A stretch of 64,000 bases of DNA from Corallium rubrum. Lineage: Eukaryota; Cnidaria; Anthozoa; Scleralcyonacea; Coralliidae. The stretch covers positions 23,497,834 to 23,561,833 of the forward strand of contig OZ035997.1 of the NCBI GenBank assembly GCA_964035015.1. The letters run 5' to 3'. Positions within the stretch are counted from its first letter, which is position 1, and each line of letters opens with the position of its first letter. The position numbers and the translations under genes are program-made. Below the pieces are notes generated by a model that searched no databases, had not been told where the DNA came from, and was given only the letters and a program-made list of their open reading frames with translations. This document shows, piece by piece, positions 10,492-28,888 of this stretch.

Positions 10492-10494
10492 TAA

Positions 10495-10669
10495 GACCCC
10501 GTTTACACGATGCCGGTACAATTTGAAAACGGAACAAAATCATGCCGGTATGCAAATACAGCATATAACATTTCATGTTATTTTTGTGCCGGTATCGTGT
10601 AAACGCAAGCCCTAAATGGCATGATTTTGTTCCGTTTTCAAATTGTACCGGCATCGTGTAAACGGGGTC
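10495..10669. mobile_element. Foldback MITE with TAA target duplication (PIF/Harbinger-like)
   Basis: A 175-bp element with perfect 52-bp terminal inverted repeats beginning GACCCCGTTTACACGATGCC and ending GGCATCGTGTAAACGGGGTC. It is flanked on both sides by TAA (10492-10494 and 10670-10672). A 3-bp TWA target duplication is the hallmark of PIF/Harbinger elements. There is no coding capacity, so it is non-autonomous. The outer TIR motif CGTGTAAACG recurs internally near 10590-10606, giving extra pairing potential. Confidence 0.85.
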
Positions 10670-10672
10670 TAA

Positions 10673-14935: not shown

Positions 14936-14949
14936 AATTTGATATATGG

Positions 14950-15339
14950 TGCGAGCAGAGCCTTCGTTTCCTTATTTCTTCACTGAGAGAGAGGAAGAAA
15001 AGAAGGCTCTGCTGTATTCGTGTTTGGCTTCGTCCAAGATTTAGGACGAAGTAACCCGTTTAAGACCCGTTTAGTGTAATAAAAGTAGCGTGCTGCGTAG
15101 GCAGTGTAGAAACAACAATCGAAATATAGTAAGGTTAGATATACTGCCGAAACAGAGAACGTAGGAGTCTAACGTTTCGAGCGAAGGCCTAACCGGTTCT
15201 CGTTTTGTTTTCTGTTCTGATTGGGACTGGGTTCGATATTGTAACCAAGCAACTGACAAAACCAGTCACGAATACAGCAGAGCCTACTTTTCTTCCTCTC
15301 TCTCAGCGAAGAAATAAGGAAAAGAAGGCTCTGCTCGCA
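14950..15339. mobile_element. Foldback MITE with about 75-bp inverted ends
   Basis: The left end TGCGAGCAGAGCCTTC (from 14950) and right end GAAGGCTCTGCTCGCA (to 15339) begin inverted repeats of about 75 bp that include a shared GAGAGAGAGGAAGAAAAG segment and TACAGCAGAGCC-type inner borders. Its interior contains AGGAGTCTAACGTTTCGAGC (15169-15188), also present at 62443-62462. No target duplication was recognised on the LINE-side junction. Confidence 0.75.
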
Positions 15340-16800
15340 GGGTAGATCAAACGCTTTGGAGAAATCAATCAAAGTCATACCATTCATTTGACCTTGTTCA
15401 ATACTGTCCAAAAGGTACTCGTAAATCATTATAAGGGAAGACTCGCAAGAACGTTGGGCTCTAAAACCATGTTGATGTGGCGAAAGATATTATTAGATAG
15501 CAAATAATTCATATTTGAAACATGTCGTTCAAGTACTTTTGAGATAACTGCTAAAAGAGAAATGGGTCTATGGCTCTTTCTGTCCGCTCTCCTGTTTTGT
15601 AAATAGGAATCAGTTTAGCTTTTTTCCACATTTCTGGGAAAATACCAGAGTCAATACTCAAATTACATACCCGAAGAATAACAGGAGCTATGGAGTTAAG
15701 CGAAATCTTGATAAAGTAAGCTGGAATGCCATCAAGACCAGTTGCCTTGTTCGAATCCAAGTCATTTAATAGTTTAATTACATCAGCAATGTTCATTAAA
15801 GGAATAGAAAACTTGGATTCACAAGTACTTAATTATACTATTGAGATGTGGGTAGTTTTGATTTGTTTGAATAGTTATGCCAAGATTTTCAGTAATAGAA
15901 GAAACGTATGCGTTGAAAAGATCACTGATCTCTTTAGGGTCAGTGATATTTACATCATCGACGATTAAAGTTGACGGAGGTGGAGTAAAGCTGGAGGGTA
16001 AGATTTTTTTTAGAATTTTCCATAGCTGGCGTAGATTATTAATGTTATCAGTTAAGAGTTTTTTGTAGTATGAGTTTTTGGACTTATTAATAATGTGGAC
16101 TGATTTGTTTCTCAAACTTTTATACTGATACCAGTGATTGGGATTTTTAGTCTTAAGATATAATTTAAGAGTTTTATCTCTTTTACGTCCCGCCTCACGA
16201 ACTGAAGAATTATACCAACCGGATAAACGGTTGGAGCGGACTCTTTTCTACTAATAGCGCATGATCATTAAGAATTTTAATGAAATGAGAATGCCAAATT
16301 TCTAACAAATCGTTAGGATTAGCTATCAAAGATTTCAAAGACATTCTGGGGAATACCCAGAATGTCATCAAAACTGGACATATCCAGATTCTTAGATCTA
16401 CGGTTTTTAATGGTATGATGGCAATCAGGTCAGTTATCAAGATTTCGAGCATTAACTTTTCTATAGTAATAAAAATCGGCAAATGATTGCTTAAACCAAT
16501 GGGAAGAACTCGGTCTCCTGATTTAAGAACATAATCATCCCTTGATGTAAAGATCAATTCAATCACAGTGCTAGATGAAGGTCGAGTAACAAACTGAATT
16601 ACTTGTTTTAGTTGATATTTAGATGTCATAATGTGAAAGGACTTATAAGCTTTCTTATCAAGAACTGAAAATTCGTATAAAGTCACCTAAAATAAGAATT
16701 TCCTTCTGCTCTTTATTAATCATTCCTAGCATATGGTTAAATTGATCCCTCCATTGGGTATTATTACCTGGTTGGTACATAATAGAAACTAGAAATGGTT
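15340..16800 (-). pseudogene. LINE endonuclease C-terminus, linker and RT N-terminus (minus strand)
   Basis: Minus strand read downwards: PFLVSIMYQPGNNTQW and EILILGDF (endonuclease GDF block, about 16790-16680), then a VIELIFTSRDDYV and GLSNHLPIFI block (SD/N-H catalytic region, about 16570-16470). Next come a linker with SYYKKLLTDNINNLRQLWK (about 16080-16020), DSNKATGLDGIPAYFIKI (start of RT, about 15760-15700), and TLIDFSKAFDL (RT block A, about 15380-15345). Multiple frameshifts separate the parts. It is the 5' part of the LINE whose 3' part is at 12630-13660. Confidence 0.85.
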
Positions 16801-18556: not shown

Positions 18557-18614
18557 CACCAACTGAACAGCCACCGACCAGTTAAACACCAACTGAACAG
18601 CCACCGACCAGTTA
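18557..18614 (-). repeat. Two inverted units of the 30-bp minisatellite
   Basis: Two tandem copies of CACCAACTGAACAGCCACCG plus a CCAGTTAA block, the exact reverse complement of the array at 18694-18918. They lie directly after the integrase remnant. Confidence 0.85.
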
Positions 18615-18693
18615 ACCCCTTCCTTTAAAGTTTAAAGGTTGAGTCTTTCAACAGGGCGACGAGCGCACACGGAGCGCCGCAAAGGTGGCTAGC

Positions 18694-18918
18694 TGGCTGT
18701 TCAGTTGGTGTTTAACTGGTCGGTGGCTGTTCAGTTGGTGTTTAACTGGTCAGTGGTTGTTCAGTTGGTGTTTAACTGGTCGGTGGTTGTTCAGTTGGTG
18801 TTTAACTGGTCAGTGGCTATTCGTTGGTTTAACTGGTCGGTGGTTGTTCAGTTGGTGTTTAACTGGTCGGTGGCTATTCGTTGGTTTAACTGGTCGGTGG
18901 CTATTCAGTTGGTGTTGA
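18694..18918 (+). repeat. 30-bp minisatellite (about 8 units)
   Basis: Unit GGCTGTTCAGTTGGTGTTTA plus ACTGGTCGGT, with substitutions and short internal deletions (TATTCGTTGG variants). The 30-bp period is a multiple of three and leaves several frames open, giving spurious repeat peptides. Together with 18557-18614 it forms a large inverted-repeat arrangement. Confidence 0.9.
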
Positions 18919-19922: not shown

Positions 19923-20470
19923 TTACCGCGATACGCTAATCGATGAGGTGGATGGCGGCGGACGGACATATCGCTGGTAGGCTAAGCTAGACCAGCGCCC
20001 CATGGCCTTGATAAGATGATCGGATACTCCGGCGGCGGCAGCGGCTGCTGTCGCTGCTCCAATCCGGAAACTGTGACTGGAGTAGTTTCCTGAAACTCCT
20101 GCTCGCGTGAGGATGGGGCGAAGATGAGTGTTAACGACTGGTAAGCGGACAACCCACGGACCAGCGAAACAGAGGGCCTGGTGAAGGGCCACGCAAATGA
20201 AGGTATGATAACAGGGCGAATAATGGACAAATGGGTGGGTGAAACCAAGAAAGACAGTTCCGCCCAAGCAAAACTGGTCACATTTGGAGAGTTGGATTGC
20301 TAGGCGAACCACTGAGGGATTCCGGCGCTGAAGAGTCAACAGCAACGTTGCCGATCCCCAAATGTTCAGTCGATGTGTCGAATGAACCGTCTGTAGTGAA
20401 TTTGCTCACTCGAAGGAATCCGAAAAAAGCAACACAACACGCGGCCTAAAACATGATGTTATCAGCAAAT
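19923..20470 (-). pseudogene. DIRS-type retrotransposon tyrosine recombinase remnant
   Basis: Minus strand. At about 20455-20400 the translation reads CCVAFFGFLRVSKF (first catalytic Arg box of DIRS recombinases), then STEHLGIGNVAVDSS. After frameshifts it continues at about 20090-19940 with HSFRIGAAT (second box, H-x-x-R), SDHLIKAMGRWSS and AYQRYV (catalytic Tyr). All core catalytic residues can be read but in different frames. The enzyme would integrate circular DIRS cDNA by site-specific recombination; this copy is inactivated. Confidence 0.85.
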
Positions 20471-20578
20471 CGCATGTCCAACGAGGAGTAAAAGATCTTC
20501 AATAACACTTTTGTCATTGGAAGGCGGAGAGACTTGCGGCTGGACACGGTACGTTTTTGTTTTTAGTGGTAGTTATTC

Positions 20579-20896
20579 TTAACATTGTAGGAGCATCACT
20601 AGTACTTGCTGATGACATAGCGAGTTACTTATAAATGAGTTAAAAAGAATCGAAGCACTGTAGAGAAATGTGCGCTTACCAAAATCAGTACGTGGGTAAG
20701 GCAGCTTAAGATTGTATAAACGGGATCTAGTACGAGCATATTGTTTATTGGCAGATAAAAAATTAAACATATTAAGTTTAAAGGAAGGTGGAGCATTAGG
20801 GTTAAGTAATATATTGAATAGTAGAAGAAGCTTCCTTAACTTAATTAGATCAAAAACTGGAACTGCACGCTTTTGAAGACGAAGAATATCGGTCAT
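20579..20896 (-). pseudogene. LINE C-terminal tail inserted in DIRS RT
   Basis: Minus strand translation ILRLQKRA, then VFDLIKLRKLLLLFNILLN and TRSRLYNLKLPYPRTDFGKR. This is the C-terminal segment typical of CR1/L2-like LINE ORF2 proteins, truncated at the 5' side as expected for a LINE insertion. It directly abuts a DIRS RT motif at 20897, and reading straight through produces a chimeric frame. Confidence 0.7.
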
Positions 20897-20953
20897 CTTG
20901 GTGAATGGGGACGTTACGATACGATACGCGCTTTCGACGTCCATTTTGGCCAT
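20897..20953 (-). pseudogene. DIRS-type RT motif A fragment
   Basis: MAKMDVESAYRIV on the minus strand matches the first catalytic block of DIRS/Ngaro-type reverse transcriptases (an A-K-x-D-x-x-S-A-Y-R pattern). The next expected residues are replaced by LINE sequence. Same strand and correct order relative to the recombinase at 19923-20470. Confidence 0.65.
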
Positions 20954-21148
20954 AAGCGCTTCAGGACCCAGTTGCAGGGGTCAACGTCTTGGGACGTCTT
21001 GCCATGGCGTATGGGTGGTCATGTACAATATCTGCTATAGCTGGTTTATGATATTGTTCTAGTGGTGATAAAACAACATTTTCATTTGTGACATTTATGT
21101 TCCGGGTTGCCCGTTGACATCTTTGTTTAGGTGGTGAAGGAACTACTA

Positions 21149-21192
21149 TACCATTTGCGTTCAAGCGTTTAGCGTTTAGCGAATAACTAGTT
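21149..21192 (+). repeat. Left 44-bp terminal inverted repeat
   Basis: Contains an internal direct repeat (AGCGTTT twice) and is identical to the reverse complement of 24901-24944. Identity ends abruptly on both sides. Confidence 0.9.
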
Positions 21193-21900
21193 ATTCTATG
21201 TGGTTACAAGGGAACTGCGCGTGCACCTGGATTATCGGAGTGTCATATGACATGCATCCAACATGTGATCGGTCATTGGCGTAGAACGGCAGCAAAGCAA
21301 CGGAACAAATTGAGCCTTGGCCAGGGAGTTGTAGAAAACAGCTAGTTGGAGAAAACGTATAACAGTGAACATATTTGCGCATATCTGAGTATCAGTAGCA
21401 TACAAGAAGTAAAGAAAATTGCGAATTCTGCGTGGGCCAAAGCCAAGTGGTATAGTAGCGCAAGCAGTGGCTCAAGCGATTGGACCGCGGGGAAAGCAGA
21501 CCATAACAGCCGGCTTCGATTCTTGTCGCATCTTTGGAGCGATTGAAGAAACATTCTCCTGGTTACCACATCAGGTAAAGCACTGACGCCAAGCACAGGG
21601 CACAACAATCAAGGTATGTTAAATATATTCTATCTTTCTTCGTGGGCAAATACTTCGGCTACTTTTGGGACAGAGGTAAGACAAAACCAGGACTAACAAA
21701 GCGGTGTCGGAGATACCAGAAAGAACGCAGGAAAGTCAGGCCTTAAAAGAAAGTAAGACATTGCGCGAAGAGAAGTAGAAAAGCGCCAGAGGCTGAGCAC
21801 AAAGGTCACACACCATGCGGTTACTTCCCCATGGGCCAAATGCGCTAACCGACACGAATTTTGTCAAGTTATTTGAGGAACATGGGGGAATACCCGAGAA

Positions 21901-22188
21901 ATGTCGTGTTTTCGTTGCGACCAAACGAAGATACTGTGCTCAAACTGCAAAGCAGCCACGACCTGCTACGGGTGGTGTGACAGCATATCTGCATATGGCG
22001 CCATTGGCGGCGACTTTATACACGTAAGCGAAATCGCAAAGAATCGACAGCAAAGAAACTCCGCACACGACACTGGGAGCAGACCCAGGCCGAGAATATA
22101 TAGGCGCTGTGCATTATTCGAGAGGAATACGCCTTTCCGTTTTGGCTTGAGACACTACAGCGTGCGACGCATAAAAATCACATCTTAG
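21901..22188 (+). CDS. Unrecognised 95-aa ORF with Cys-pair motif (doubtful)
   Basis: Starts at an ATG and encodes MSCFRCDQTKILCSNCK followed by CYGWC, giving C-x2-C, C-x2-C and C-x3-C pairs within the first 30 residues. This spacing could bind zinc. The C-terminal half is basic (RPRPRIYRR) with no recognisable fold. It lies inside the 44-bp inverted-repeat-bounded segment, upstream of the 36-bp array. It could be the end of a decayed transposase or a chance frame, and I cannot assign a function. Confidence 0.25.
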   Translation: MSCFRCDQTKILCSNCKAATTCYGWCDSISAYGAIGGDFIHVSEIAKNRQQRNSAHDTGSRPRPRIYRRCALFERNTPFRFGLRHYSVRRIKITS

Positions 22189-22427
22189 CCGTTTAATAGA
22201 GCGGAACCATTTGTTAGTAATAAGATATCATGTTGTTGAGTTAACGTTGTCATCAAAGAATATTGCATAAAGAAGTGTCAATTGGCAAACTCCAAGGGTT
22301 GTCACCACGGGGTTTAATCACGTATAAAACAGTTTTCTCAGAACTGTCGTCCGAAACGTACGAGGATTTTAGAACCTTTAGAGATATTTAAGGTTTAATC
22401 ACTGGTTTTACAGCAATTGGAATATAC

Positions 22428-24089
22428 CACAGCCTAATTGACATTTGCTACAGCCTGTGTGCAGTCCTAGTGATGGACATTTGCTACAGCCTGTGTGCAG
22501 TCCAAGTGATGGACATTTGCTACAGCCTGGGTGCAGTCCCAGTAATTGACATTTGCTACAGCCTGGGTGCAGTCCCAGTGATGAACTTTGCTACAGCCTG
22601 GATGCAGTCCCAGTAATTGATATCAGCTACAGCCTGGGTGCAGTCCCAGTGATCGACAGTTGCTACAGCCTGGGTGCAGTCTCAGTGATGAACTTTGCTA
22701 CAGCCTGGGTGTAGTCCCAGTGATCGACAGTTGCTACAGCCTGGGTGCAGTCCCAGTAATTGACATTTGCTACAGCCTGGGTGCAGTCCCAGTGATGAAC
22801 TTTGCTACAGCCTGGGTGCAGTCCCAGCAATTGATATCAGCTACAGCCTGGGTGCAATCCCAGTGATGGACATTTGCTACAGCCTGGGTGCAGTCCCAGT
22901 GATCGACAGTTGCTACAGCCTGGGTTTAGTCCCAGTAATTGATATCAGCTACAGCCTGGGTGCAATCCCAGTGATGGACATTTGCTACAGCCTGGGTGCA
23001 GTCCCAGTGATCGACAGTTGCTACAGCCTGGGTTTAGTCCCAGTGATGGACATTTGCTACAGCCTGGGTGCAATCCCAGTGATGGACATTTGCTACAGCC
23101 TGGGTGCAGTCCCAGTGATCGACAGTTGCTACAGCCTGGGTTTAGTCCCAGTGATGGACATTTGCTACAGCCTGGGTGTAGTCCCAGTGATCGACAGTTG
23201 CTACAGCCTGGGTGCAGTCCCAGTAATTGACATTTGCTACGGCCTGGGTGCAGTCCCAGTAATTGACATTTGCTACGGCCTGGGTTTAGTCCCAGTGATC
23301 GACAGTTGCTACAGCCTGGGTGCAATCCCAGTGATGGACATTTGCTACAGCCTGGGTGCAGTCCCAGTGATCGACAGTTGCTACAGCCTGGGTTTAGTCC
23401 CAGTAATTGATATCAGCTACAGCCTGGGTGCAATCCCAGTGATGGACATTTGCTACAGCCTGGGTGCAGTCCCAGTGATCGACAGTTGCTACAGCCTGGG
23501 TTTAGTCCCAGTGATGGACATTTGCTACAGCCTGGGTGCAATCCCAGTGATGGACATTTGCTACAGCCTGGGTGCAGTCCCAGTGATCGACAGTTGCTAC
23601 AGCCTGGGTTTAGTCCCAGTGATCGACAGTTGCTACAGCCTGGGTGCAGTCCCAGTGATCGACAGTTGCTACAGCCTGGGTGCAGTCCCAGTGATCGACA
23701 TTTGCTACAGCCTGGGTGTAGTCCCAGTGATCGACAGTTGCTACAGCCTGGGTGCAGTCCCAGTAATTGACATTTGCTACGGCCTGGGTGCAGTCCCAGT
23801 GATGAACTTTGCTACGACCTGGGTGCAGTCCCAGTAATTGATATCAGCTACAGCCTGGGTGCAGTCCCAGTGATCGACAGTTGCTACAGCCTGGGTTTAG
23901 TCCCAGTGATCGACAGTTGCTACAGCCTGGGTGCAGTCCCAGTGATCGACAGTTGCTACAGCCTGGGTGCAGTCCCAGTGATCGACAGTTGCTACAGCCT
24001 GGGTGCAGTCCCAGTGATCGACAGTTGCTACAGCCTGGGTGCAGTCCCAGTGATCGACAGATGCTACAGCCTGGGTGCAGTCCCAGTGC
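22428..24089 (+). repeat. 36-bp hairpin minisatellite, about 45 copies
   Basis: The core of each unit is GCTACAGCCTGGGTGCAGTC followed by CCAGTGATCGACAGTT. The palindromic arms CTGGG and CCCAG enclose a 6-nt loop (TGCAGT, TTTAGT, TGCAAT or TGTAGT). Spacers between hairpins vary (GATCGACAGTT, GATGGACATTT, AATTGACATTT, AATTGATATCA, GATGAACTTT). The first units (22440-22510) have broken arms (CTGTG...), typical of a decayed array edge. Since 36 is a multiple of three, two plus-strand frames and a minus-strand frame are open for long distances, including an apparent 356-codon frame at 22767-23837. This is not evidence of a protein. Confidence 0.95.
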
Positions 24090-24360
24090 AGACATCATCG
24101 GGCTCAGCAGCCCCTGGGTAGCAGTCCCAGCACAGACATCATCGAGCTCAGCAGCCCCTGGGTGCAGCCTCAGTACAGACATCATCGGGCTCAGCAGCCC
24201 CTGGGTAGCAGTCCCAGCACAGACCTCATCGGGCTCAGCAACCCCTGGGTAGCAGGCCCAGCACAGACCTCATCGGGCTCAGCAGCCCCTGGGTAGCAGT
24301 CCGGGGTAGCAGTCGCAGTGCAGACGTCACCGGGCTTAGCAGCCCTTGGGTGGCAGTTCC
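24090..24360 (+). repeat. 44-bp tandem array sharing the same hairpin core (about 6 copies)
   Basis: The unit runs CAGACATCATCGGGCTCAGC, then AGCCCCTGGGTAGCAGTCCC, then AGCA. It retains the CTGGG...CCCAG arms around a 7-nt loop (TAGCAGT). It follows directly after the 36-bp array and probably derives from the same ancestral module with a longer spacer. One copy (about 24290-24315) carries an insertion. Confidence 0.85.
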
Positions 24361-24779
24361 AGTGTAGATAATCCTTTGTTTGCTTGCATTGGGTAGTATG
24401 TTCAAATAGGAAATGGGGGTGAAAGGTTGGGAAAGGGTTCTTAGGGGTTTACTTGGAATTCGTTCGGAATAGAGCATCACTTTGGTGGTATTTTGTCATC
24501 GTTCGTTTCAGACGGCAGCGTTTGCTTGGCATAACTTGTCTTTGGCTTAATTGTGAGAATTGGAATGATCAGCAAACGCAGATCGTCTGATAAGGGTAGT
24601 TCACTTCAATATGACTTGCCGAACGCATTTACTTTGTATTCCGTGTTTGCCGTGACCCGTGAGAAAATATCAACGCACCGTTGAAACTTGAAACGGAAAA
24701 TAACAACGAAAAGTTACACACCCTATTCGTCATCGATTTGATCTGTCAAACGATAGTTGTCATTAGATAACGTTTGTTT

Positions 24780-24893
24780 CAAGCTTCTCTTTCTCCTCTT
24801 TCTCCTCTTTCTCCTCCTCCGCCTCCTCTTTCTCCTCCTCCTCCTCTTTCTCCTCCTCCTCCTCTTTCTCCTCCTCCTCCTCCTCCTCCTCCT
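24780..24893 (+). repeat. Polypyrimidine (CTCCTC/TTTCTC) tract
   Basis: Over 100 bp of nearly pure C and T made of CTCCTC and TTTCTCC blocks, directly inside the right 44-bp inverted repeat. Mirror-repeat composition makes triplex (H-DNA) formation possible. Confidence 0.9.
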
Positions 24894-24900
24894 GGAAAAC

Positions 24901-24944
24901 AACTAGTTATTCGCTAAACGCTAAACGCTTGAACGCAAATGGTA
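24901..24944 (-). repeat. Right 44-bp terminal inverted repeat
   Basis: Exact reverse complement of 21149-21192. Confidence 0.9.
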
Positions 24945-25274
24945 GTAATATTTCAGTACTAATGGAAATGTGATCATTAGCATTAGTGTCCAAATACATG
25001 GTTTCTTTTCTCAGCTGATGAGATGGACTGCAAAAGTGTTTTTACAATGGTTAATACCTGTATAGTGTATAGTGTATAGTGTATAGAGTACAGTAGATGG
25101 AATTAGGTTAACCCTCGTGCATCCACCATGGTAATTATAAACCTAGCTCTCTTAGACAGAAATGGTTTACAGAAATATACAGAGTGTATACCAGCTGAAA
25201 TTGCATAAATTACTTTTTGTTGAAATATTAGAAATGGTGCCAAGATTTGATTATAGCTAAGAAAAGGTTTGAAA

Positions 25275-25480
25275 AGTTTTAAAAATGTTAGACAATATTA
25301 CGTCAGTATTGACACACTGTACCTGTGGTTGTGATGGAAACAATGTGGGGATTGCATGTGGTCTCAGTTGTGTTTTTGCCAATCCAGTTGTGTCCAGCAT
25401 TGTCTCCTCAAAATGCTCTGAACATAATCTGCTGTGTTCTGTTGGAACAATTTTTCCCCTCTTGTTAGGCTTGTGAATGC
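25275..25480 (-). pseudogene. THAP zinc-finger C-terminal half (gene fragment or exon)
   Basis: Minus strand translation includes HSRLCSEHF followed by LRPHAIPTLFPS. C-x2-H in LCSEHF is the second zinc-ligand pair of the C2CH THAP domain, and the AIPTLF block is its conserved AVPTIF box. The N-terminal half with the first Cys pair is not contiguous, so this is either an exon with the start elsewhere or a remnant. THAP domains bind DNA in host transcription factors and in P-element-type transposases; which one applies here cannot be told. No clear splice acceptor was fixed. Confidence 0.6.
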
Positions 25481-25556
25481 CACCCACATTTTTTTGTTTA
25501 TTTTACAAGCGAAATGGGGAATAAGTGTGGAATTTCGGTTGTAACATCCGATGCAA

Positions 25557-26325
25557 GAGATATTCGCTCTCTTTGAGAGGCTATCTCAATTCTGGCCTGC
25601 CGAAAAATGTTCCAAGTTCACTAAAATTATGAAGAGGATTAAAAAAATACGGATTCGATGTAAAAGAAGATCTTCGCTTACTTCATAAAATTCCCACTCC
25701 CTCGCTACAGTATCTGATACCAAGAGTTGTTGTCAGATACTGTAGCGACGGAGTGGGAATTTTAGGCCATACGAATAGGTCTTAAAAGAAGATATTCGAG
25801 GCTGTTTTGATGGGAGAATTCTCGACTGAACCAAAAAGAGATAAGTGAAGATGTTCGCTCTCCTTGAAGGAGACTCCTTCAAATCACTTCAAATACTGGT
25901 GAACGTTTCGAAGCCGACACGGATATTCGCTAAACATTGCTGTTTCAAAGTGTCGATATAAAGAATTTATTCCTTCTTCTGCCGCAAGTGTCGATAAAAA
26001 GATGTTCGTTCTCCTTCAACAAATCGCTATTTTTTATGCATGCGGTAAAACCTGCGTGTCGAGACAAAAGACTGTCGACTGTTTCCGAAATGGCATTTCC
26101 AGCCGAACTAAAACAAATCTAGCTTTGACAGTATAAAGTGTAAACAGACGGGAATCTTTGCTAAACCAAATAAAGGTCAGAAGATATTCTATCTCCTTGA
26201 CCTTAATACTGAGTTCCGGAACGGAGTGACCATCGCTATGATAATTTGTATACTTTATATTTCGAGGCAGGAAATTATAGGTAAACGATGGTGAGTATAG
26301 AGAAGATAATCGTTCTTTCTCCTCG
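25557..26325 (+). repeat. Decayed periodic motif (GAAGATRTTCGYTCTCCTT-like)
   Basis: Eight imperfect occurrences of a GAAGAT(A/G)TTCG(C/T)TCTCCTT-like word occur at about 25557, 25664, 25785, 25845, 25918, 25997, 26178 and 26300, several with downstream CTTGAAGG or CTTCAAC. Parts between them also resemble each other (GTGTCGATAAAAAG and GTGTCGATATAAAG). This suggests an old tandem array or a decayed repeat-protein gene. No open frame spans it. Confidence 0.45.
25687..25763. repeat. Long hairpin, 31-bp arms
   Basis: Arms 25687-25717 and 25733-25763 match at 30 of 31 positions around a 15-nt loop. They include AAAATTCCCACTCC and TCGCTACAGTATCTGA. Likely a miniature foldback element sitting inside the decayed periodic repeat region. 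Confidence 0.85.
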
Positions 26326-28888
26326 CTGTTTCGGGGTAAAACTGATTTCTACCGGATTGAAAAGACGATGAGCGAGGTAACAAAAGAACCCGGAACGAAG
26401 TATAACAGTCCTCCTAAAATAAAATCTCCGATAACGTATTCGATTTCCTTCGAGCTGACTGGTAGAATTAGCGGCTTGAGTGTCGAAATAATATTGATAA
26501 AGCTCTTCCTAACTAGAGAGCGTACCCCAACCCCCTTTCGTGATCCGGAGAATACGTTTACTGACACTCGTTGCATGGCAGCCGAGTGAGTCGTGGCGGT
26601 TGTGGAACAAATGCCAGGGGGGGAATGCAAATTTGGGACAGCGAATTGGGAGCTGAACGAACCTGATATTCGAGCGCTGGAACTACTGACGATAGTTGAA
26701 AGTGAGGTTGTTTAATACCACGCTTTTTTGTTCTTTTTGTTACGCTAAAGCCGCTATAAGCGGCTCAAACGTACGGCGCCTGTAATAAGGCTTCGAATTC
26801 ATTTGGTAGACATTGCATGGTCGACCGAAATATTTGGAGCGAAAACGCTAATCCGTAGATGGCAAAGGAACCAGAGTTGGAAAAAGTATTCAACCTTCCT
26901 CCGGATGGGTTTTTAAGTTTAGATAACCTTCCTCAAAATATATAGCGAGAATTTTGTGTTTTGCAACGTTCATAAATACTGTGTGACTTTTACAGTACCT
27001 TGCATGTTTTCTATAGGTTTTCCTAGGTAAGCTTTGGCATACTACAATAGCTACTAATAACTGACCGCTGCTGACTGACAGCCTACTAACTACCCTCGAC
27101 TGCTGGGAAGATACAGGAATCACAGCAGACATCAGCGTGCATGTCTCACACATGTAACTGCTGCCACTGCCAGTGCTGGATAATTGTTGGTTAGCCAATG
27201 TTTTGCTGCAAATCGCTTTTCTTCTCGACACCTTGCTTGATCAATTGTAACTTTCTCAGATTACCGAATGTGTTGTTTCACGTGTTTTCACTTTAAACCT
27301 GCCTCACTAAAGTAAACCTTCCTCCGGGTGGTACCCGCATACCTGCAGCTTTTTTGCAACTCTGAAAGGAACGTAAAATTTTTTTGCGCCAAAAAAACAG
27401 GTGGTATAAAAGAACGTAAAAACGAAGACTCTGAGAACGGACATTAAACTAGAGGCTGGCAAGGTTAACTAGTACCCAAAATAAACCTGAACAAGGTATA
27501 GTAGCGACGGTATTGAGTAGTTATGCAATGTTCGTTGATTAACCAAAAGTTGGAGAGGGCCAAACCTGACAAACCAACACGTCGTGCGAACCTAGTACAG
27601 TATTAGTAAATTAGAAAGGGCGAGATTATTAAACCGAATTAATAACCCAGTTATAAAGCGATCGAGACCCTCTGCCCAATAACCAGCAACACACAAATAC
27701 GCAAGTGAGAACACAAATTAAAAACAACAGAACTGGCTCAATACGAGAACTTAGACCACTGAAACGAGGCGCAGCAAAACGGGTTCTGCAAGCAGTAACA
27801 ACCAGTGAAACACGTGCTATATATAAAGGTTTGCTAAGTCGGTCAATGTTGTATAACCCAATTGGCTCCCTTAATACAATAAACCAAGCGTCTTCCAGCC
27901 TAACTAACGAGCACTTAGCGACGACAGACAACGATCGATCGCAAGCATGCGAAAAAGCTAAACAACTAGTGCGAACAGTCAGTACAAAACCATTACCGTA
28001 GAAAAACTAAATAATAGCTTAAGGGGGCAATACACCTGAATTATGTTTATTTACGGTGTCGATAGTTTGGTGTGCTTTGCTTCATGAAGTATTGAACCAA
28101 AGTATGGACAACCTTATATTTTCAGAAACTACAGGAATTAAGCAATACATTAAAGCTAAATTGACTTGGATTATTTACATCATAATTTACATTTGAGGCG
28201 ATGATTGTCAAAATGGCCTCACCCAGTATATGTTCTCAAAATTTTAACTCCTCTAAAACATCGCCAAGTTTCATCGAAAACACTTTTTAAAGTAGTTTAG
28301 GGGTAAACCTAAAATATGATGATGGGAAGTTGTAGAATCTTGCTGCCATAGCAACAAGAAGTAAGTAATTATTCAGTTTCTGAGTTCCACTGACAATATT
28401 TCAAAAACTACCTCCCCCTTCCGAAAGTGCTATCATCATTTTGCTGCAAATATATAAAATAACAAATGCTGAAAATTTTAAATTTCAGATAAATTGAATA
28501 AAAGCTTTAGGAGTTATAAAAAATCCAATTTAAAGTCCAAGAAAGTCAAAATTGTGAATGGATTACAAAAATAGCTTGACAAAATTCAGGTGAATTGCCC
28601 TTAAAACAGAATAGGTAACGAGAAAACAAACGCACACTAACGCAAACTAGACAATTGTTAGCAGTTATTAGAGAAGACCCCATTGATGTTCAGTTCCTAG
28701 CGTTTAATAGCGTTTGCCTGGGCGCTCGCGAACCTCTTGCGAACGGCCATCGTTGTATGGGACATGGCGGTGGTCGAAACCACGATGAGTGTGCTGGAAA
28801 CCTGTCACGTCGCAGGCGTGGTATTAAGCAACGCCCTTGATTTCACGAACGACACACGAATCGTGAAGACGGAGAAGACGGAGTAGTA
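26326..28888. other. Stretch without a recognised gene
   Basis: Open frames of 93-113 codons at 26349-26630, 26890-27231, 27629-27931 and 27705-28001 show no recognisable domain, and several overlap on opposite strands. AACCTTCCTCCGG-like words recur at about 26894 and 27315. GCCGCTATAAGCGGC (26751-26765) forms a small hairpin. AGCGTTTAATAGCGTTTG at about 28699 resembles the internal repeat of the 44-bp terminal sequence at 21149, possibly by chance. Confidence 0.5.

Follow-up and report, generated by a model that had tools for sequence, protein, structure and literature searches.

The 3.8-kb unit described here, found in a 64,000-nucleotide stretch of Corallium rubrum DNA (the window), is probably a copy of a common small element without genes with 3.3 kb of other DNA standing where part of one arm used to be. 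The element itself is a multi-copy inverted-repeat element without detectable coding capacity that duplicates TA, and both its ends and the TA duplication were identified from copies elsewhere in the genome. On the joint evidence we judge it likely that the unit is a copy from a non-autonomous, TA-targeting family of MITEs of about 480 bp, and that the copy in the window suffered a break in its left arm, gained 3.3 kb of foreign DNA and had its arrays of minisatellites expand locally.

The arms of the unit (21149-21192 and 24901-24944) form an exact inverted repeat without a mismatch in 44 bp. This length far exceeds what chance would give: when the 64-kb window was simulated 20 times with a first-order Markov model, the longest exact inverted repeats measured 16-20 bp. 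The first-pass annotation, which had described a 3.8-kb unit bounded by exact 44-bp repeats, was right in this. It had also called them the only long perfect pair at kilobase distance, and they are the only exact pair of at least 30 bp lying more than 1 kb apart in a list from which AT microsatellite pairs had been filtered out, but the window holds further exact pairs of 191 bp (58962-59152/60071-60261, 918 bp apart), 53 bp (10494-10546/10618-10670, 71 bp apart) and 47 bp (18557-18603/18694-18740, 90 bp apart), as well as shorter ones. The 191-bp pair is part of a longer foldback-like structure (58953-59271/59965-60270) with arms of 229 and 81 nt that are 96 % complementary and with 52-bp tandem repeats, for which no clear target duplication was found. 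The 53-bp arms belong to a small MITE-like palindrome (10494-10670) that starts with AGACCCCGTTTACACG, and the 47-bp match is found in a 30-bp tandem repeat arranged in two inverse blocks of 2 and 7.6 units (18557-18916).

Comparison with other copies places the ends of the element slightly outside the 44-bp arms, and the window copy probably spans 21146-24945 (Table 1). The first-pass annotation had considered a TA target duplication at the outer ends of the arms; TA flanks the revised ends on both sides, and a TA duplication is seen on other copies. The left end of the window copy reads TACTATACC and thereby exceeds the usual form by two bases, which is also the case in one other copy (L017).

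Table 1. Features of the window copy (positions in the window)
Feature	Position	Strand	Remarks
Left TA target-site duplication (proposed)	21144-21145		TACTA|CC flank and empty sites of other copies
Left terminal inverted repeat, shortened	21146-21195	+	about 50 bp left of about 131 in the consensus
3.3-kb segment	21196-24492		in place of MITE consensus about 44-138
Non-repetitive 1.25-kb part of the 3.3-kb segment	21196-22440		without detected protein domain
Minisatellite with 46 units (35-36 bp, 20 types)	22447-24098 (also delimited as 22440-24088)	+	partly with a 108-bp higher-order pattern
Second minisatellite, 44-bp unit, 5.3 copies	24070-24302	+	core CCTGGGT..CAGTCCCAG in common with the first
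MITE interior and inner right arm	24493-24782		93 % identity to positions 139-431 of the 482-bp consensus
CT-rich tract in the right arm	24787-24893	+	between consensus about 431 and about 434
Right terminal inverted repeat, outer part	24894-24945	-	
Right TA target-site duplication (proposed)	24946-24947		deduced from other copies

When the 24-bp outer piece of the end was searched in the host genome (474 Mb, 312 contigs) with up to 3 mismatches allowed, 476 matches were obtained, 241 forward and 235 reverse, against none in a reversed control, and the piece thus marks a family of mobile elements. We examined 40 stretches (L010-L049) around places from a list of about 100 of the 476, all of them among the best-matching ends, as well as eight further loci given by the search. 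Both ends in inverse orientation were found in 26 of the 40 stretches, and 27 copies, including that in the window, were measured. The copies are 252, 416, 464-524 (fourteen copies), 884-1625 (eight copies), 3800, 6381 and 8121 bp long. According to the first-pass annotation, a mobile element would be supported by recurrent inverse pairs of ends with variable interiors, and by TA flanks and empty sites; the 476 places and the 26 two-ended stretches provide the former. The other 14 of the 40 stretches (L028, L030-L035, L038, L040, L042, L045-L047 and L049), in which there is a single end, a doubled right end or a second end with 4-6 mismatches, were left out of the 27, yet one of them, L032, was used for the consensus. 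A duplicate pair with shared flanks (L027 and L029) and a sister element (L026) were retained.

The consensus, built from 14 short copies that are 93-96.5 % identical to it (gaps excluded), is 482 bp long and has arms mirrored over approximately 131 bp. The 252-bp copy in L026 has only about the outermost 20 bp in common with the family and represents a sister element. The same near-palindromic element is seen at L007:554-799, where it is 246 bp long, and with outer ends shared in this way one transposase may serve several families.

Several other copies contain unrelated insertions of about 0.4-7.6 kb, so that the window copy is not alone in having a large interior of foreign DNA. One copy (L011) encloses ORFs resembling those of LTR retrotransposons and another (L010) a GIY-YIG-like ORF; this name, like the names DIRS, LINE, LTR and Penelope applied to other ORFs, is presumptive and was given by the look of the ORF rather than by a domain search. 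A LINE-like ORF in L015 stands between two right ends and is not clearly within a copy. Within the LTR-retrotransposon-like DNA nested in the L011 copy, 3.8 perfect copies of a 250-bp unit were noticed (L011:4181-5135), apparently with a tRNA-like stretch as judged by eye.

The flanks of the 27 copies are fixed over a short distance. Outside the motif CCATTTG, each position of a left-hand TACTA is kept in 20-26 of the 27 copies and each position of the complementary sequence on the right in 24-27, and beyond this the sequence is free. A symmetric-offset test (offsets 0-13, 21 rows) gave TA matches of 18 seen against 18.1 expected and 15 against 14.5, the expectation coming from mismatched pairs; with TA a constant part of the flanks, copies paired at random agree just as often, and the claim of a duplication is therefore carried by the empty sites alone. 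Longer target duplications were sought in the same rows, and none of at least 3 bp was common to as many as 3 of the 21 at offsets 0-13.

The empty sites are paralogous sites within the genome and concern the sister element in L007 and an ordinary copy with an insertion in L009, not the window copy. The filled site in L007 reads CCCGTT-TA-[CTACC...GGTAG]-TA-AGACC, and an empty relative elsewhere in L007 reads CCGTTTAAGACC. A further relative of this target, near 15060 in the window, reads CCCGTTTAAGACC, matching on the right side over AGACC only and then diverging; the two empty relatives read GTTTAAGACC. Comparison of L009 with L031 likewise gave a single TA at the empty site, although the three bases that follow this TA differ at two positions, and in a third candidate pair (L036/L032) the junction was not resolved. 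From these sites it follows that CTACC is the beginning of the element and that TA is duplicated on insertion. The TA flanks and empty sites that the first-pass annotation had named as a test were thus encountered, the flanks in the 27 copies and the empty sites at L007 and L009, as paralogues and not as related haplotypes, and the test as a whole had a largely positive outcome. The window relative belongs to a repeat with inverse arms of about 97 bp (14938-15351), a relative of which in L007 was the target of the sister element and the source of the empty site.

Duplication of TA around CTACC...GGTAG points to a transposase of the Tc1/mariner type, TA duplication being the trait of the IS630-Tc1-mariner group that was recovered from the empty sites of L007 and L009 and the flanks of the 27 copies. 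Other assignments were considered. IS3EU elements have TA..TA ends and usually 6-bp duplications, according to the part of PMC10045372 that deals with them, and an element of this type with TA...TA termini and a degenerate 6-bp duplication might be read from the window copy, as four of the six bases just beyond the 44-bp arms are the same on both sides. However, agreement at 4 or more of 6 positions was reached by 4.8 % of random pairs from the window (100 000 trials) and the empty sites of other copies reveal a 2-bp TA duplication, making this reading extremely improbable. ISL2EU elements, for which the relevant section of PMC4482050 gives an AT duplication in an A|AT|T target, were set aside, as the empty sites show a single TA. 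Membership of piggyBac or of the CMITE group was also rejected, there being a duplication of TA and not of TTAA. The CMITEs of Acropora corals (PMC2872659) are about 100 bp long with a TTAA duplication and other terminal sequences, and resemble the present family in that they, too, are small elements of an animal genome that have inverted repeats and do not code for protein.

In the window copy, the terminal inverted repeat and the interior are those of the 482-bp MITE family (Table 1). The left arm ends at approximately 21195 (consensus position 43 or so), the next 95 or so consensus bases (about 44-138) are missing, and in their place stands the 3.3-kb segment, in which both minisatellites follow a non-repetitive stretch of 1.25 kb. 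No terminal repeats or duplication of its own were seen for this segment, and the 95 bp or so were lost alongside. We infer that insertion of the MITE preceded arrival of the segment because the segment is absent from the sampled copies: when parts of it (21193-22440, the first two 36-bp units, the 44-bp array and 24303-24480) were compared with the 40 fetched stretches, none of the 40 was matched at an E value of 0.001.

The reverse relationship, in which the window copy would be an older long form with 21196-24492 as the decayed interior of a progenitor, and the 482-bp MITEs would be internal deletion derivatives of it, has in its favour that MITEs commonly arise by internal deletion and that an inverted repeat of about 50 bp and a length of 3.8 kb would suit a full-size element. 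We nevertheless consider it unlikely, as the interior is without a Pfam protein domain, the tested parts of the segment occur in none of the 40 stretches, arms mirrored over about 131 bp are not expected from simple deletion of the window form, and the right arm of the window copy has an extra tract. Two separate MITE copies, or one copy broken by rearrangement, could also have supplied the two ends, with ordinary local sequence between them. The left end keeps only about 50 bp, and doubled right ends with the same flank do occur (L015, L028 and L047), but the ends of the window copy agree at all 44 bp and both include an extra 7-bp repeat that only some copies of the family have, and we regard such an origin as quite unlikely. 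A single MITE copy with a replaced arm segment is the reading we prefer.

The interior had been described in the first-pass annotation as rich in minisatellites with a polypyrimidine tract, and the 36-bp array, the 44-bp array and the CT-rich tract are all present. The string of unit types in the 36-bp array includes repeated blocks (JFK twice and JFL three times) and part of the array has high identity at a shift of 108 bp, a pattern as expected of local duplication. The hairpins also ascribed to these minisatellites come down to stems of 4-5 bp that are little or no more stable than those of shuffled sequences. The 36-bp consensus has a 5-bp stem (-3.7 kcal/mol as DNA; z -0.16), a stability equalled or surpassed by 75 of 200 shuffles; the corresponding numbers are 26 of 200 for a variant of the 36-bp unit (z -1.08) and 15 of 200 for the 44-bp consensus with its additional 4-bp stem (z -1.62). 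Derivation of the array from the inverted repeat was examined and dismissed, a 26-bp end piece matching only the two ends and a site at 26844 with up to 8 mismatches allowed.

The non-autonomous, TA-targeting transposon of the first-pass annotation stands, on multi-copy ends, inverse pairs and empty sites with a single TA, while the satellite array does not appear to be part of it, the usual form being a MITE of about 482 bp that lacks it. It is conceivable that the minisatellite is mobile cargo, picked up by the element and carried to further sites: inverted-repeat elements carrying tandem repeats have been published (PMC12628747 and PMC9659126, in the portions that describe them), and the window copy has both ends with TA at the expected places. 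Against this, the tested parts of the arrays matched none of the 40 other stretches and there is no evidence that the window copy moved after gaining them, and this account too seems to us rather improbable. The idea of a satellite-carrying transposon is thus unproven and, on the sample of 40 stretches, unlikely.

No coding capacity was detected in the unit. A Pfam search of the six frames of 21149-22440 returned a single match (E 0.13), below its cut-off, and in the six frames of 17000-30999 matches were found only outside the unit, in agreement with the earlier statement that it includes no recognisable transposase. A 99-aa open stretch had two matches in the PDB, both at chance level (E 0.59 and 0.88), and no Rfam family reached its gathering score in 20000-27000; a captured gene or the remnant of a transposase inside the unit was rejected on these grounds. 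Nor did inspection by eye of the long fetched copies reveal a transposase within their ends. Two observations concern DNA outside the copies. A THAP-domain remnant lies beside the unit (25338-25454, minus strand; E 1.4e-4; score 23.0 bits, cut-off 23.9), and an ORF at L043:1780-2277 (plus strand), about 3.7 kb outside a MITE copy, has to the eye the look of the end of a Tc1-type DDE transposase.

The family resembles Stowaway-like and other Tc1-mariner MITEs in being non-coding as far as tested, in duplicating TA, in having terminal inverted repeats and in being multi-copy, but differs from typical Stowaway elements in its outer motif CTACC and its arms of about 131 bp. Elements of the clam Donax trunculus are reportedly MITEs that carry tandem repeats, and the window copy is like such MITEs in being an inverted-repeat element with a tandem array inside. 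Others are miDNA4 of Xenopus tropicalis and Xstir of X. laevis, described as MITEs with tandem repeats in the pertinent parts of PMC12628747 and PMC9659126. Copies of miDNA4 have, in those parts, from one to many monomers, whereas here the array was seen in one copy only, its tested parts matching none of the 40 other stretches. The foldback element Tetris of Drosophila virilis, as characterized in sections of PMC4079207, has tandem repeats within its inverted repeats and duplications of 8-10 bp. On that description it shares with the window copy inverted repeats, internal tandem repeats and the lack of apparent coding capacity, but the window copy has its array outside the arms and a TA duplication, and membership of the foldback (Tetris/Galileo) group was rejected because the duplication is of TA and not of 8-10 bp and the array is outside the arms.

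Searches beyond the host gave nothing further. The end motif was found at no place in prokaryote contigs, and neither it nor the satellite motif at any place in viral contigs; an 18-bp version of the end motif matched one place in viral contigs but had no partner in the surrounding 7.3 kb and was taken as chance. The 5' interior had no match in phage records. A search of the literature, with Repbase and Dfam outside its scope, found the general class but no name for this family. The word undescribed, used in the first-pass annotation, may therefore be fair for the family by name, as far as that literature goes, but the family is of a well-known kind, inverted-repeat elements with internal tandem repeats being in print.

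The course of events that would best account for these observations begins with a transposase acting in trans, most likely one of the IS630-Tc1-mariner group, which would have moved the copies by cutting at CTACC...GGTAG and duplicating TA. The left arm of the window copy would then have broken inside the repeat, with 3.3 kb of other DNA taking the place of about 95 bp, and the CT-rich tract would have arisen in the right arm. The minisatellites in the 3.3 kb presumably expanded through local slippage and unequal exchange, and both the gain of the segment and the growth of the arrays would have occurred after transposition or apart from it. A bolder proposal is that this TA-target MITE family occasionally swaps part of one arm for host segments of kilobase size, stays mobile, and so picks up minisatellites and disperses them, much as Pack-type transposons do but without genes; we think this very unlikely.

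With these data, what had been a one-off repeat oddity becomes a defined family of transposons with a consensus, ends and a target site. The window copy also offers a clean case for asking if MITEs transport satellites or are only places where satellites take hold, and is, apart from that, ordinary genome biology.
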